Assembly (NCBI GenBank): GCA_026005175.1
Contig: BPKO01000001.1
Coordinates: 1,054,001-1,118,000, forward strand
Direction: 5' to 3'
DNA from: Candidatus Tectimicrobiota bacterium
GTDB lineage: Bacteria; Tectomicrobia; Entotheonellia; Entotheonellales; Entotheonellaceae
DNA length: 64,000 bases
Below the pieces are notes generated by a model, which saw only the letters and a list, made by a program, of their open reading frames with translations, made no database searches and was not told the DNA's origin. Below are positions 58,173 to 64,000 of this stretch, piece by piece (position 1 is the stretch's first letter; every line of letters begins with the position of its first letter). The translations under genes and the position numbers were made by a program.

Positions 58173-59228
58173 ATGACCCAGGACGCCATCCAGGACGTGG
58201 ATGCCATCGAGTTTTACTTCGACAAGGGGGTCACGGACGGCCTGCCGGTGGTGCCGCCTACCGAGGAGCGGGTGCAGCGCATGCTGGCCGCCACCTCGCG
58301 CGCGCCCGACGAGGTCATCGCGCTGGTGCCGCCCAACTACGGGGAGGCCACGGTGGAGAAAATCGCCGTCAACGCGGTGATGGCCGGTTGCAAGCCGGCT
58401 TACTTGCCGGTGGTGCTGGCCGGGGTGCAGGCGATGTGCGACGAGCGCGTCAACCTGCACGGCGTGCAGGGGACCACCCACACCGCCACGCCGCTGTTTA
58501 TCGTCAACGGCCCCATTCGCCGCGAGCTGGACATCAACTGCGGCGCTGGCGTCTTTGGCTCGGGCTGGCGGGCCAACGCCACCATCGGCCGCGCCCTGCG
58601 TCTGATCATGGTCAACATCGGCGGCGCCAGGCCAGGGGAAATCGACAAATCCACCATGGGCCATCCCGGCAAGTACACGTACCTCATCGGCGAGTACGAG
58701 GAGGTGAGCCCCTGGGAGCCGCTGCACGTCGAGCAGGGGTTTGCCCGCGAGCAGAGCACCATCAGCGTCTACTGCTGCGATGCCCCGCAGTGCATCAGCA
58801 ATCACGGCAGCCGCACGGCGCGGGGAATCCTGCAGACCATTGGTGCCAGCATGGCGGTGGGGTGGAGCGACAAGACGTACCTGGCCGACAGCTACCTGGT
58901 GGTGATTGGCCCCGAGCATGCCAAGACCATTGCCGCCGATGGCCTGAGCAAGCAGGACGTCAAGCGGTTCTTGTACGAGACGGTGCGTCGGCCGCTGCGC
59001 GAGCTGCTCCCCGGGCCCGACGGCAGCGAGGGGCTGGCGCGCGAGCGCCTGCCCGGGTGGCTCGACGCCACCCGCGACGAGACGCTGGTGCCCAAGGTGG
59101 CCTCGCCCGAGGGCATCATCGTGGTGGTGGCCGGGGGCACTGCCGGCCGCTTCTCCCTCCACATGTGTGGCTGGGGCAGCGGGGCAGGGGCCAGCCGGCT
59201 GGTGACCGTGCCCATCAGCAAGGAGTGA
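58173..59228 (+). CDS. conserved protein of unknown function, operon partner of the UGSC selenoprotein
   Basis: 351-aa soluble protein with no signal peptide. No characterised family is recognised. Conserved-looking segments are DGLPVVPPTEERV, VAVNAVMAGCKPAYLPVVLA, GTTHTATPLFIVNGPIRRELDINCGAGVFG, FAREQSTISVYCCDAPQCISNHG and VVVVAGGTAGRFSLHMCGWG. The CCDAPQC cluster and other Cys residues could bind metal or take part in redox. GGGGAGGAGCC precedes the ATG, and the selenoprotein gene starts 4 bases after its stop, so the two should be made from one transcript and may form a complex. Confidence 0.75.
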   Translation: MTQDAIQDVDAIEFYFDKGVTDGLPVVPPTEERVQRMLAATSRAPDEVIALVPPNYGEATVEKIAVNAVMAGCKPAYLPVVLAGVQAMCDERVNLHGVQGTTHTATPLFIVNGPIRRELDINCGAGVFGSGWRANATIGRALRLIMVNIGGARPGEIDKSTMGHPGKYTYLIGEYEEVSPWEPLHVEQGFAREQSTISVYCCDAPQCISNHGSRTARGILQTIGASMAVGWSDKTYLADSYLVVIGPEHAKTIAADGLSKQDVKRFLYETVRRPLRELLPGPDGSEGLARERLPGWLDATRDETLVPKVASPEGIIVVVAGGTAGRFSLHMCGWGSGAGASRLVTVPISKE

Positions 59229-59232
59229 AGCG

Positions 59233-59754
59233 ATGACGCGACTTTACGAACCCACGGCGGCACCGCGCGTGGAGGCCAGCCTGGCGCCGCGCGTGGACAG
59301 CCTCAATGGCAAAGTGATCGGCCTGCTCGACATCAGCAAGCCCAAGGGGAATTACTTTCTGGATCGCCTGGCCGAGCGGCTGTGCGCGGAGTTCCAGCCC
59401 AAGGCCCTCCTTCGCCGCATGAAGCCGACCTACGCGCGGCCGGCACCGGAGGAGCTGCGCAAAGAGCTCGCGCAGCAGTGCGACCTCATCATCGAAGCGC
59501 TGGCGGATTGAGGGTCGTGCACCACGTGCAGTGTGCACGACGGCGTGGCTTTTGAAAAGGCAGGAAAACCGGCAGCAGTTTTTGCCACCACCGAGTTTGC
59601 CGATGCCGCCCGCGCCCAGGCGGCGGCGCTGGGCCTGCCGGCCTTCGAGGTCATTCTCGTTGACCATCCCATCCAGCCCCTGACCCAGGAAGAAGTCTAC
59701 CAGCGCGCCGATGCCGTCTTTGCGCAGCTGGTGGCCAAGCTCACGCGCCGTTGA
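59233..59754 (+). CDS. UGSC-family selenoprotein (in-frame UGA read as selenocysteine)
   Basis: The frame starting at ATG 59233 meets TGA at 59509-59511, but continues in the same frame with good codon use and family-like sequence to the TGA at 59752. Read-through gives 173 aa, with Sec at residue 93 in ADUGSCTTCSVHDGV, the UGSC motif (Sec-Gly-Ser-Cys) that names a family of microbial selenoproteins with a Cys variant. Before it are VIGLLDISKPKGNYFLDRLAE and CDLIIEALAD; after it ...AVFATTEFADAARAQAAALG. A perfect 9-bp stem-loop begins 3 bases after the UGA. The neighbour at 58173 is a probable partner. Sec machinery lies outside the window. Confidence 0.88.
59514..59541 (+). promoter_or_regulatory. 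candidate bacterial SECIS hairpin
   Basis: GTCGTGCAC (59514-59522) and GTGCACGAC (59533-59541) form a perfect 9-bp stem around the 10-base loop CACGTGCAGT, starting 3 bases downstream of the UGA. A hairpin directly after the UGA is the arrangement required by SelB. Distance from UGA to the apical loop is 11 bases, slightly shorter than the usual 16-37, and the first loop base is C rather than G. Confidence 0.72.
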
Positions 59755-59977: not shown

Positions 59978-60416
59978 TCAGGGGCGTTCCTCTGGCCAGA
60001 CCTGCATCCCGGAATGCCGGCCTGCCTGCCACAGCTGCCGGTCGTAGGTCGCCAGAATCACCGGCAGCGCCATCATTTCGTGCCACAAGACCGCACACGC
60101 CAGGTGGACGGCATCATAGCCCCGCAGGTTGTGCTCCCAGGCGAGGTCGGCGGCCCCGCTGCACGGTGTACTCGGTCACCCGTAATCGGTTAAAGCGCTC
60201 CCACTCACGCCGAAAGGCCCTTAAGGCCACGCGCGCCGCTCTGCCTTCGAGCGCCCGTCTCCGCACGGCCCCGGCAAGCGCCGCTGCCACCTCCGCCATC
60301 GTAATGAGCGCCGTTCCCACCGCGGTCGTCGCGCCAACCATCTCCGCCACCGCCTCAGACCCCGCTTCCTCCACGTAGAGCTTCACGATGACGCTGGCGT
60401 CCAGATACACGATCAC
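59978..60416 (-). CDS. vapC: VapC-type PIN-domain toxin (one frame shift)
   Basis: About 145-aa PIN-domain ribonuclease toxin. The acidic residues are in MIVYLDASVIVKLYVEE (Asp5), TMAEVAAALA (Glu) and LRGYDAVHLACAVLW (Asp), the last in a second frame. An extra C in CGGGGCCGCCGAC near 60155 splits the gene; removing it restores a continuous protein ending QVWPEERP. It overlaps the antitoxin gene by 4 bases. The module lies at the border of the lower-GC dnd region. Confidence 0.87.
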
Positions 60417-60685
60417 CCGCGGTTCTCCACCAGCAGCTCCGCCACCGTCTTTTTCCCCCGCACGCGGGCGACGGGCTTTCTGGGCTTCACCTTACCCCGC
60501 CCGAGCACCAGGAATCCCAGCCGCGCCAGCATCTCCATGCGCGCTTGCAGCGGGATGTCCGCCGGAATCACCCGCCCGATGGGCTTCCCCCGCTCTGCGA
60601 TTTCCACCACCTCCCCTGCCTTCACCCGTCGCAGGTAGGCGCTTAAGTGCGCTTTAAACTCCCGAATGTTCACACGCACCGCCAT
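60413..60685 (-). CDS. Phd/YefM-type antitoxin
   Basis: 90-aa antitoxin paired with VapC. The N-terminus VNIREFKAHLSAYLRRVKAGEVVEIAERGKPIGRVIP is the Phd/YefM DNA-binding and dimerisation fold, and the basic C-terminal half would wrap the toxin. The ATG at 60685 follows TGGAGGAACAGCA. Autoregulation through the promoter at 60718-60746 is expected for this type. Confidence 0.88.
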   Translation of the reverse strand: MAVRVNIREFKAHLSAYLRRVKAGEVVEIAERGKPIGRVIPADIPLQARMEMLARLGFLVLGRGKVKPRKPVARVRGKKTVAELLVENRG

Positions 60686-60717
60686 TGCTGTTCCTCCAGC
60701 GAACTCGTTGTGACTAC

Positions 60718-60746
60718 ATCTTAGCGATTCGTGGTCATGTCTGCAA
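60718..60746 (-). promoter_or_regulatory. promoter of the phd-vapC module
   Basis: On the minus strand TTGCAG (60741-60746) and TAAGAT (60718-60723) are 17 bases apart; the antitoxin ATG is at 60685. Confidence 0.65.
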
Positions 60747-60915
60747 TCGGCCCTTGCGCGCCGGAGCGACTCGGCTGCTGGGCCAATCGGGGTCTCCCGA
60801 TGCAGGCGGCGCGTGACCACGTACAAAGCACGCCCTGCATCCGGTTGGCACTTGCGCTGGAGGCGCTATGGGCCCTCCAGGGCACACCCTTTGGCAAAGA
60901 ACCATTGTTGTCTAT

Positions 60916-62049
60916 TTAGCGAAGCTTTCTTATGATATTCACCACTGCATCCCAGTCAGGATCTGGGGTCATATGACACCATGACAATCGAAGAGCACTC
61001 TGGATAATTATGTCGGGCAATCTCATTGCTTTAAGAACATGGCTTGGTTCATAGTTGTGTGAGGTGCATGCCGAGCCGTTAGAAATTGCAATGTAGTCTT
61101 TAACAGCTACCATCACAGCTTCGGCGTCTATTCCAGGGAACGCTAGATTGACCACGTGGGGTAACGTGCGTCTTGAATCCCCGTTGATTATAGGATCAAG
61201 CGGCGCGAGGGCAGCGAGGGTCCGCTCACGAAAAGCTTGACAGATTTTTGCGCGATGCCGTGCTTCACGCAGGGCAAGCTCAGCGGCAACCCCAAGGCCA
61301 ACAATAAGAGGGACAGGCAATGTTCCAGGGCGCAGACCACGTTCTTGCCCACCTCCGTATAGTAGCGGTGTCAGCGGGGGGCGACGGAAACCCCGCCGTC
61401 GCACAATGAGTGCACCGATGCCTTTGGGGCCGTAAATTTTGTGTCCACTGATGCTAATGAGATCAATTCGTGGGTGCTGCAGCGTCTCAATATCCTTGCC
61501 AAAACCCTGGGCAGCATCGACATGGAAATAGGCCCGGATGATTTGCCAAACACTCAGCAATGTCATAAAGAGGCTGTACTACCCCTGTTTCGTTGTTGAC
61601 ATGCATAACCGATACCAGTAATGTATCAGCGCGTAGAGATTTGCGTATTGCCTCCGGGTCTACCCATCCTCCTGATGTGGGAGGAATGAGGGTGACTGTA
61701 AAGCCACGTGCAGCAAGTACGGCAAGAGGTTCGAGCACTGCTTTGTGCTCAATCTGCGTGCTGACAATATGCTGCCGTTTGGTCGCTTCCCCATGGCTTG
61801 CTAGGCCGAGGAGTGCCAAATTATTGCTCTCGGTGGCGCCACTGGTAAAGATCACCTCGTCGCGTTGCGCCTTGACCACTGCTGCTACTTGGTTCCCCGC
61901 GCGTGTTGCACCGCCTGCTTAGCGCGGGCGCCGAAATCGTGTGTACGACTCCCAGCGTTACCGAATTCGACGGTCATATACTTCATCACCGCATCCCGCA
62001 CCCGTGGCTCTAGCGGGGTAGTGGCATTACAGTCCAAATACACAACCAT
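60916..62049 (-). CDS. dndA: cysteine desulfurase DndA-like (two frame shifts)
   Basis: PLP-dependent cysteine desulfurase, about 377 aa, supplying sulfur for DNA phosphorothioation. Signatures across three frames are MVVYLDCNATTPLEPRV, FTSGATESNNLALLGL, HVDAAQGFGKDI, ISISGHKIYGPKGIGALIV (PLP Lys) and SNGSACTSHNYEPSHVLKAM (catalytic Cys loop). Frames change near 61890 and 61545. It is divergent from dndB, as in Streptomyces. GGGAGGA lies upstream of the ATG at 62049. An IscS/SufS housekeeping role is the alternative; the neighbour genes make DndA more likely. Confidence 0.87.
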
Positions 62050-62439
62050 GACCATTCCTCCCTGCACGCCTCACTTCGTGGATCCCGAAGTTCGCGACGA
62101 GAGTTTATCAGATTATCCGCAAAGTTTGTGAATTTTTTGTGGTCTGTTCGCTTTTTTCTTGACATACGGGCGAGAGTATGCTTTCCTGGATGGCCGGAGA
62201 CGGAGGAACGGGGCGGAGGGGTTCACCCGTATAGTGGCAGAATCGGTTCGCCGGGGATGTCATCTACGGTAATGTAATTCCTCCAGGGGGCTGGCAATGT
62301 GGCAATGGGCGAGCAAATGGCGGGTCATTGATTGAAGTGCCGAGTTATTTTAATTTTCAGTATGAATGATAACGAATTGATATATTGATTATCTCAATAT
62401 TGGCAAGTTTATTATAGACGTATCCATAGGAGTGAATCC
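62050..62439. other. AT-rich divergent intergenic region between dndA and dndB
   Basis: 390 bases, markedly richer in A+T than the window average, with no gene seen. It contains TTGACA at 62159-62164 without a well-spaced -10 (TATGCT follows after 12 bases), and TTGATT (62385-62390) with TATTAT (62410-62415) at a 19-base spacing before dndB. An inverted repeat overlaps the latter -35 box. Confidence 0.55.
62382..62400. promoter_or_regulatory. inverted repeat upstream of dndB, candidate operator
   Basis: ATATTGA (62382-62388) and TCAATAT (62394-62400) around TTATC form a perfect 7-bp palindrome about 40 bases upstream of the dndB ATG and overlapping its possible -35 element. dnd operons elsewhere are repressed by dedicated regulators; no regulator gene is in the window. 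Confidence 0.4.
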
Positions 62440-63543
62440 ATGAATGCCGCCTTTGAGTATGTCTTTCCAGCAATACGGGGAGTACAAGCGCGTCGAGAAT
62501 ACTATGTATCGATGTGTCCACTACGTCTTTTGCCTAAGATTTTCCTATTTAATGAGGAGGAGCTGGTTTCCAGAGTTGCGCGCGCAGCGTACTTTGAACA
62601 AGAGTCGTATTCCGGAGATTACTCGCTATATTCTGGACAACCGTGACACCTATGTTTTCTCTGCAATAACCGCTTCTATTGATGGTGAAATACGATTTGA
62701 GCCGCTAATAGATGGATTAGAAGGTCAACGGGTTGGGCTTTTACATATCCCCATGTCGTCGCAATTCATCATCAACGACGGGCAACACCGTCGCGCTGCC
62801 ATTGAAATGGCACTTCGTGAAAATCCAGATCTCGCGGATGAAAGCATTGCGGTTGTCTTTTTCCTCGATGTAGGGACTTGAACGCTGCCAACAGATGTTT
62901 GCCGACCTGAACCGCTATGCGGTTCGTCCATCTAAGTCGTTAGGGGTTCTATATGACCATCGAGACGAACGTGCAAAGCTAGCCAAACTGGTGGTGCTCC
63001 GCTCGCCGATGTTTCGCGATGTAGTGGAGATGGAAAAAAGCACGCTCTCGGCACGATCACGGAAGCTCTTCACCCTTAGTGCTATCTATACGGCAACGTC
63101 AGCGCTATTGGCGCATACAGATCATGGCTCATTGGAAGAGCGAGCACAGCTGGGCCGTGGATTTTTGGGAAGAAGTGGCAAAGCAGTTTCCAGAATGGCA
63201 GATGGTACGCAATCGGCAAATGACGGCAGCAGAAGTGCGTCGCGATTTCATCCATTCCCACGGGATTGCCTTGCAGGCGATCGGTAAGGTAGGGAACGTT
63301 CTCATACAGGACAGCGCGACAAACTGGAAGCACCGCTTGCGGCGCCTCAGAAGCCTTGACTGGTCACGCGCTAATGCCAAGTTATGGGAAGGTCGGGCCA
63401 TGATTGGCGGTCGCGTGTCCAAGGCTACCCATAATGTCATCTTGACTACTAACGTTATCAAAAAGCATCTCCAGCTGTCCCTTTCGCCGGAGGAACAGCG
63501 CGTTGAGGACGCTTTTCTGCGAGGAGACTATGTCAGCACATAA
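62440..63543 (+). CDS. dndB: DNA sulfur modification protein DndB (three frame shifts)
   Basis: About 367 aa. DndB is associated with DNA phosphorothioate systems and carries the DGQHR motif, seen here as FIINDGQHRRAAIEMAL. Other segments are MNAAFEYVFPAIRGVQARRE, ITRYILDNRDTYVFSAITAS, VVFFLDVGLERCQQMFADLN, YDHRDERAKLAKLVVLRSP and FIHSHGIALQAIGKVG. Frames change near 62570, 62880 and 63150; the span stays a multiple of three. AGGAGTGAATCC precedes the ATG. It is divergent from dndA and overlaps dndC by 14 bases. Confidence 0.87.
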
Positions 63544-64000
63544 TGTCCACCACCTGGTTTCTGTCTTCGCCAAAGACGGTTTCAAGATAACGGTAAATCT
63601 TCTCCTAGAAGAGATCCAGGAACTCTACTGCGCTGATGAGGCTCCTTGGATTGTCGGTTATAGTGGTGGAAAAGATTCTACTGCAGTGCTTCAGCTTGTC
63701 TGGCTTGCTCTGTCGACTTTGGAACCACACAAGCGTACCAAAACGGTGCATGTCATCAGTACTGATACCCTAGTGGAAAATCCCGTCGTAGCTGCCTGGG
63801 TCACCCAGTCCCCCTGCAGACCATGCAGCGCACTGCACAGCGAGATAACATTCCTATTGTGCCCCATCGGCTTACGCCTGACATCACTGACACCTTCTGG
63901 GTTAACCTGATCGGCCGTGGCTACCCTGCGCCGCGACCTAAGTTCCGCTGGTGCACAGACCGATTGAAGATAAAACCCTCTAATGCATTTATTACCCGTA
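63530..64000 (+). CDS. dndC: DNA phosphorothioation protein DndC (3' partial, one frame shift)
   Basis: PAPS-reductase-like ATP pyrophosphatase that activates the DNA backbone for sulfur insertion. The PP-loop is IVGYSGGKDSTAVLQLVWLAL, followed by VISTDTLVENPVVAAWV; after a frame change near 63808 the protein continues with TFWVNLIGRGYPAPRPKF and RWCTDRLKIKPSNAFI, containing the Cys of the family. The gene runs off the right edge. dndD and dndE are expected next. Confidence 0.88.

Follow-up and report, generated by a model that had tools for sequence, protein, structure and literature searches.

A UGSC-family selenoprotein gene of Candidatus Tectimicrobiota, its partner gene, and a distant relation to the selenocysteine domain of GrdB/PrdB

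The question raised by this locus is whether a TGA codon within an otherwise open frame encodes selenocysteine (Sec) and, if so, in what kind of protein. The locus lies in a 64,000-nucleotide stretch of a Candidatus Tectimicrobiota genome (GCA_026005175.1, contig BPKO01000001.1, positions 1,054,001 to 1,118,000; called the window here), where a frame opens with an ATG, runs to the TGA, resumes directly in the same phase and ends at a second TGA at 59752-59754 (Table 1). The codons TGA GGG TCG TGC at 59509-59520 give U-G-S-C, in the setting ALAD-U-GSC-TTC-SVHD, with Cys residues at +3 (C96) and +6 (C99), and the product reads MTRLYEPTAAPRVEAS...CDLIIEALAD-U-GSCTTCSVHDGVAFEKAG...VDHPIQPLTQEEV...LTRR. 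An earlier, sequence-only reading had described this frame and motif and had assigned the gene to the UGSC selenoprotein family, and on all three points our analysis agrees with it. The Pfam UGSC profile PF24696 matches residues 5-171, through the TGA (E=3e-49, 167.9 bits against a cut-off of 25), and the NCBIfam equivalog model NF041046 matches with E=1.4e-46 (158.2 bits against a cut-off of 125). Because one profile covers both sides of the TGA, the frame that spans it is not due to chance. The gene shares with the family a full-length match above the cut-off, Sec in the UGSC motif and the exchange of Sec and Cys among relatives; there is no important difference, and it is a member. It is essentially certain that this is a UGSC-family selenoprotein gene, with UGA encoding Sec93, in a two-gene operon.

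The genome examined (14 contigs, 77% complete) contains the Sec machinery that had been predicted to lie elsewhere in it: selA (C3:365135) and selB (C3:366298) are side by side, a tRNA-Sec gene with anticodon tca (UCA) is at C3:375030, and selD, itself with an in-frame TGA, is at C9:120631. This genome has seven UGSC genes, each with one TGA at the motif; in each of four further genomes from the same phylum there are between four and seven UGSC matches, also with one TGA at the motif except for one fragment that ends before it. GTDB genomes scanned with the Sec column masked yielded 80 homologous loci from other genomes, the nearest named ones being labelled Candidatus Binatota/Binatia; none were found in the viral contigs searched. 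The codon at the Sec position is TGA in 79 of these loci and TAG in one, and the homologues do not end there but continue past it. The TAG-bearing gene is from Blastococcus, and CTA is the anticodon of the tRNA-Sec gene in that genome (a gene labelled Pyl by ARAGORN); since UAG-coded UGSC selenoproteins have already been reported in Geodermatophilaceae (PMC5330540), this case is a confirmation and not a discovery. Cys at position 93 in relatives, which the sequence-only reading had suggested looking for, occurs in the haloarchaea Natrinema, Halalkalicoccus and Halorientalis and in Arthrobacter, in all of which a TGC or TGT codon was read directly, and also in Embleya; the haloarchaeal and Arthrobacter copies are plasmid-borne. 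Gene callers truncate UGSC genes at the TGA: the copy on the Acidovorax T1 plasmid is annotated as a hypothetical protein of about 97 amino acids that ends at this codon, and its fused partner (below) is unannotated.

The hairpin that had been reported just 3′ of the Sec codon is exactly as described, with gtcgtgcac (59514-59522) pairing perfectly with gtgcacgac (59533-59541) in a 9-bp stem around a 10-base loop (59523-59532). By itself it is weak evidence, as its folding does not differ significantly from that of dinucleotide shuffles (z -0.47), and the energy of this one sequence was therefore dropped as proof of a selenocysteine insertion sequence (SECIS) in favor of a family-level test. 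Over the 45 nt from the Sec codon, 101 UGSC genes fold better than their synonymous-codon versions (mean z -1.10, standard error 0.09); z at six other offsets within these genes lies between -0.08 and -0.48. Judged from these comparisons, Sec coding appears secure, because the Sec machinery, the TGA in paralogues and homologues, the codon-anticodon match in Blastococcus, the Cys relatives and the family-wide folding all support it.

The UGSC gene is the second of a pair whose first member, here called the partner, encodes the uncharacterized protein P0002. The UGSC Shine-Dalgarno sequence sits inside the end of the partner gene, so translational coupling from partner to UGSC is likely. P0002 had no match in Pfam, NCBIfam or PDB sequences. 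Each of the seven UGSC genes in the genome has P0002 or a relative of it alongside; among the 80 homologous loci, 73 have the partner directly next to UGSC in the same orientation and two more have it close by in the opposite one (75 in total), and it is not present at five, two of which have UGSC at a contig edge. Several UGSC-partner pairs are single fused polypeptides with the UGSC portion first, and at some loci, Dehalococcoidia and haloarchaeal ones among them, a partner lies on both flanks of UGSC, an arrangement which suggests that complexes with two different partner subunits may form. The UGSC and partner distance matrices are correlated with r=0.89, a value that no permutation in 2000 reached and that reflects species history in part; among diverged paralogues of the same phylum alone the correlation is r=0.72. 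In Foldseek the partner weakly matched class-I fumarate hydratase alpha and cyclic amide hydrolases (best E 1.4e-4, TM about 0.27, best Z 5.9), and with such TM and Z values (Z<6) neither identity was adopted. The Global Ocean Sampling survey (PMC2398784) describes a fusion of UGSC to a conserved uncharacterized domain, "Unknown_1", which is probably our partner family; the fusion to such a domain is common to both, whereas here the partner is a near-constant separate neighbor gene, seven times out of seven in one genome.

What kind of protein this pair might form is suggested by a comparison with the Sec-containing subunits of glycine and proline reductase. The hhalign alignment of UGSC to the PrdB/GrdB Sec domain (93.9%, E=1.6e-7, 91 columns) places Sec on Sec, and E-x-x-GIP and HP(L/I) stretches align after it. 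With Sec masked E is 3.3e-6, and with both Sec and the +3 Cys masked it is 1.1e-5; for decoys, reversed or column-shuffled, E ranged from 0.08 to 0.91, and for the unrelated partner alignment it was 0.29. A PrdB profile search detected 97 of 100 UGSC sequences as against three decoys, the best UGSC match being a paralogue from the same genome (E=8e-6 at Z=10,000). On this profile evidence we take UGSC and the GrdB/PrdB Sec domain to be distantly homologous, a link that is not stated in the UGSC literature examined and is new here. UGSC resembles GrdB/PrdB in the aligned Sec, the U-x-x-C motif, the E-x-x-GIP stretch and about 90 residues of profile homology, as well as in being one of a two-gene pair with a second, proposed substrate-side subunit. 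It differs in being shorter and in occurring mostly in groups not known for Stickland fermentation, plus haloarchaea.

We also note that PF07355 proteins, some GrdB-like and some short and PrdB-like, are encoded by the genome itself and by its relatives; among those read, almost every one has TGA at the position equivalent to U-x-x-C. The PrdB-like protein of the genome (locus L136, G000:C5:119379-119765 and downstream) has its in-frame TGA at a U-P-x-C motif. Relatives (L133, L134, L137, L138 and L141) have full-length GrdB-like genes with in-frame TGA adjoining GrdE-like (PF09338) genes, and these loci are, by their sequence, Grd-type selenoenzyme component B genes. Beside PrdB-like genes we found no convincing copy of the UGSC partner. 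At L132-L176 most PF07355 matches stop between positions 344 and 347 of the 347-position model, just before Sec; the Pfam model thus appears to be truncated at the UGA, and the second half of the Sec domain is therefore missed.

The AlphaFold model of UGSC (predicted local distance difference test score, pLDDT, 95.9) has strands at residues 28-33, 58-63, 85-91, 114-119 and 141-143 that alternate with helices, and places Sec93 directly before a helix that starts at residue 94. Its fold matches are CheY, lumazine synthase, flavodoxin-like proteins and similar sandwiches; thioredoxin is not among the top matches listed, although absence from such a list is no proof. UGSC is thus predicted to be a five-strand Rossmann-like sandwich, and the thioredoxin-like fold supposed for it in PMC2398784 is not seen in the model.

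The seven UGSC copies of the genome lie in differing neighborhoods, with profile matches to AMP-ligase (acyl-CoA ligase), molybdo-hydroxylase and hydantoinase B, and with genes for enoyl-CoA hydratase, acyl-CoA carboxylase and Liv-type transport that were identified by their translations only. Annotated homologous regions contain CoA transferases, PEP-mutase-like lyases, LLM enzymes and TRAP/TTT transporters. A single shared catabolic pathway was considered and rejected, there being no constant third gene; acyl-CoA dehydrogenase and short-chain dehydrogenase/reductase (SDR) genes recur but are scattered. Phosphosulfolactate synthase was found near the Natrinema and Arthrobacter copies and at none of the other loci. 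The Cys-using pair of Arthrobacter sp. ERGS1:01 is within an operon, trxB-trxA-partner-UGSC.

In glycine reduction electrons pass from thioredoxin reductase (TrxR) through thioredoxin (Trx) and GrdA to GrdB (PMC3091704), and in the Grd and Prd systems the substrate is activated by a pyruvoyl-bearing subunit and attacked at carbon by Sec; a Se-S bond forms, which thioredoxin/GrdA or PrdC then reduces (PMC3091704, PMC10298544). The most economical reading of the UGSC pairs is that they are a family of substrate-specific catabolic reductases. In an enzyme of two subunits, UGSC would carry out the redox catalysis in the manner of the GrdB/PrdB Sec domain, and the partner's part would be to bind a small catabolic substrate and activate it. 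In the model Sec93 follows strand 3 and lies at the N-terminus of helix 3; from there its selenolate would attack the substrate, and a C-N, C-S or C-X bond would be cleaved or reduced. C96, which is invariant in an alignment of 71 members, would resolve the intermediate by forming a Se-S bond, for which thioredoxin would be the reductant, and the diverged pairs, seven in one genome, would then differ in the substrate that they serve. The best explanation of the locus, and on balance a probable one, is in our view a Sec reductase that has two subunits, acts on catabolic substrates, is reduced by thioredoxin and exists as paralogues of differing substrate specificity. The broader proposal, which we put forward tentatively, at slightly below even chances, is that UGSC and its partner belong to the GrdB/PrdB superfamily as a new branch of it. 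This would be a widespread, mostly selenium-dependent reductase of two subunits that acts outside Stickland fermentation, has substrate-specific paralogues (seven in one genome), draws electrons from thioredoxin and uses an activating subunit with no relation to GrdE/PrdA.

Several points weigh against these proposals. None of the 71 UGSC members has a direct match to PF07355 (E<=5), a model which stops just before Sec; the E-value that joins UGSC to GrdB/PrdB is a pairwise one, and what is homologous is a stretch of an alpha/beta fold about 90 residues long. Among UGSC members the third Cys of UxxCxxC is not conserved. The partner was also considered as a GrdE/PrdA and rejected, since 55 partner proteins showed no PF09338 match and hhalign of the partner against PF09338 gave E=0.33; the partner being unlike GrdE/PrdA, the pyruvoyl substrate-activating chemistry of Grd and Prd need not be shared, and the analogy may be confined to the Sec half. 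Finally, a single trx operon was found, with thioredoxin-like genes near four of the other loci examined.

That operon, together with the U-x-x-C motif, would also suit a general thiol-disulfide oxidoreductase or peroxidase, thioredoxin-like as the literature has it, with the partner as its redox client. This seems to us unlikely, given the CheY/flavodoxin/lumazine-synthase style of the model, which lacks the thioredoxin beta-hairpin, and given that the seven copies have diverged, have a partner apiece and lie in differing catabolic neighborhoods, which would be unexpected for a housekeeping redox protein. The pair could otherwise act as a lyase, hydrolase or isomerase without redox chemistry, with Sec or Cys as a covalent nucleophile and the main active site on the partner. 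The weak Foldseek matches of the partner, the acyl-CoA ligase, molybdo-hydroxylase and hydantoinase neighbors and the existence of Cys versions point that way, but the poor quality of those matches, the invariant Cys of U-x-x-C, which suits redox resolution, and trxA/trxB in the Arthrobacter operon make it a rather doubtful alternative as well. That the TGA is a true stop or a sequencing error followed by a relic frame can be rejected as extremely improbable, in spite of assembly frameshifts elsewhere (in a partner copy on C2, a UGSC copy on C6 and the dnd genes at the end of the window), as the codon is common to seven paralogues and 79 independent homologues, with conserved protein beyond it, and in Blastococcus follows the tRNA-Sec anticodon.

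UGSC was one of the major selenoprotein families in the Global Ocean Sampling survey (PMC2398784), and no function is given for it in the literature examined, so that the description of its function as unknown was true of the literature; the sequence-only reading overlooked the upstream partner gene, the six further copies and the GrdB/PrdB link. The family is known and this gene is a further member, while the partner, the copy number, the fold assignment and the link to glycine/proline reductase are new. With the partner link, the distant reductase homology and the trx operon of the Cys-using Arthrobacter, the function of UGSC becomes testable, and the Cys versions can be expressed easily. 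If the proposal is true, selenium-dependent reductive cleavage would be common well beyond anaerobic amino-acid fermenters.

Table 1. Features of the UGSC operon and of the DNA downstream of it (window coordinates)
Feature	Position	Strand	Remarks
Partner gene (P0002)	58173..59228	+	351 aa (amino acids), uncharacterized family; beside UGSC genes; ends 4 nt before UGSC start codon
Shine-Dalgarno AAGGAG	59220..59225	+	7 nt before ATG 59233, within last codons of partner gene
UGSC selenoprotein gene	59233..59754	+	173 aa, Sec is residue 93; PF24696 and NF041046 matches, AlphaFold model
Sec codon TGA	59509..59511	+	TGA likewise in 7/7 UGSC genes of the genome and 79/80 homologues (TAG in 1)
bSECIS-like hairpin	59514..59541	+	9-bp stem, 10-base loop; family-wide folding excess over synonymous controls
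Codon of C96, Cys of U-x-x-C	59518..59520	+	invariant (71-member alignment)
His145-Pro146	59665..59670	+	nearly invariant; within stretch aligned to GrdB/PrdB
PIN-domain toxin and Phd/YefM antitoxin pair	60114-60826	minus	between UGSC gene and dnd island
DndA/SspA-like cysteine desulfurase	60916-61879	minus	two overlapping frames
DndB	62444-63543		three frames
DndC, start of gene	63503-63910

After the UGSC operon the window contains a DNA-phosphorothioation (dnd) island at 60916-63910, which is low in G+C at third codon positions. The frameshifts in its genes are either decay or assembly indels.
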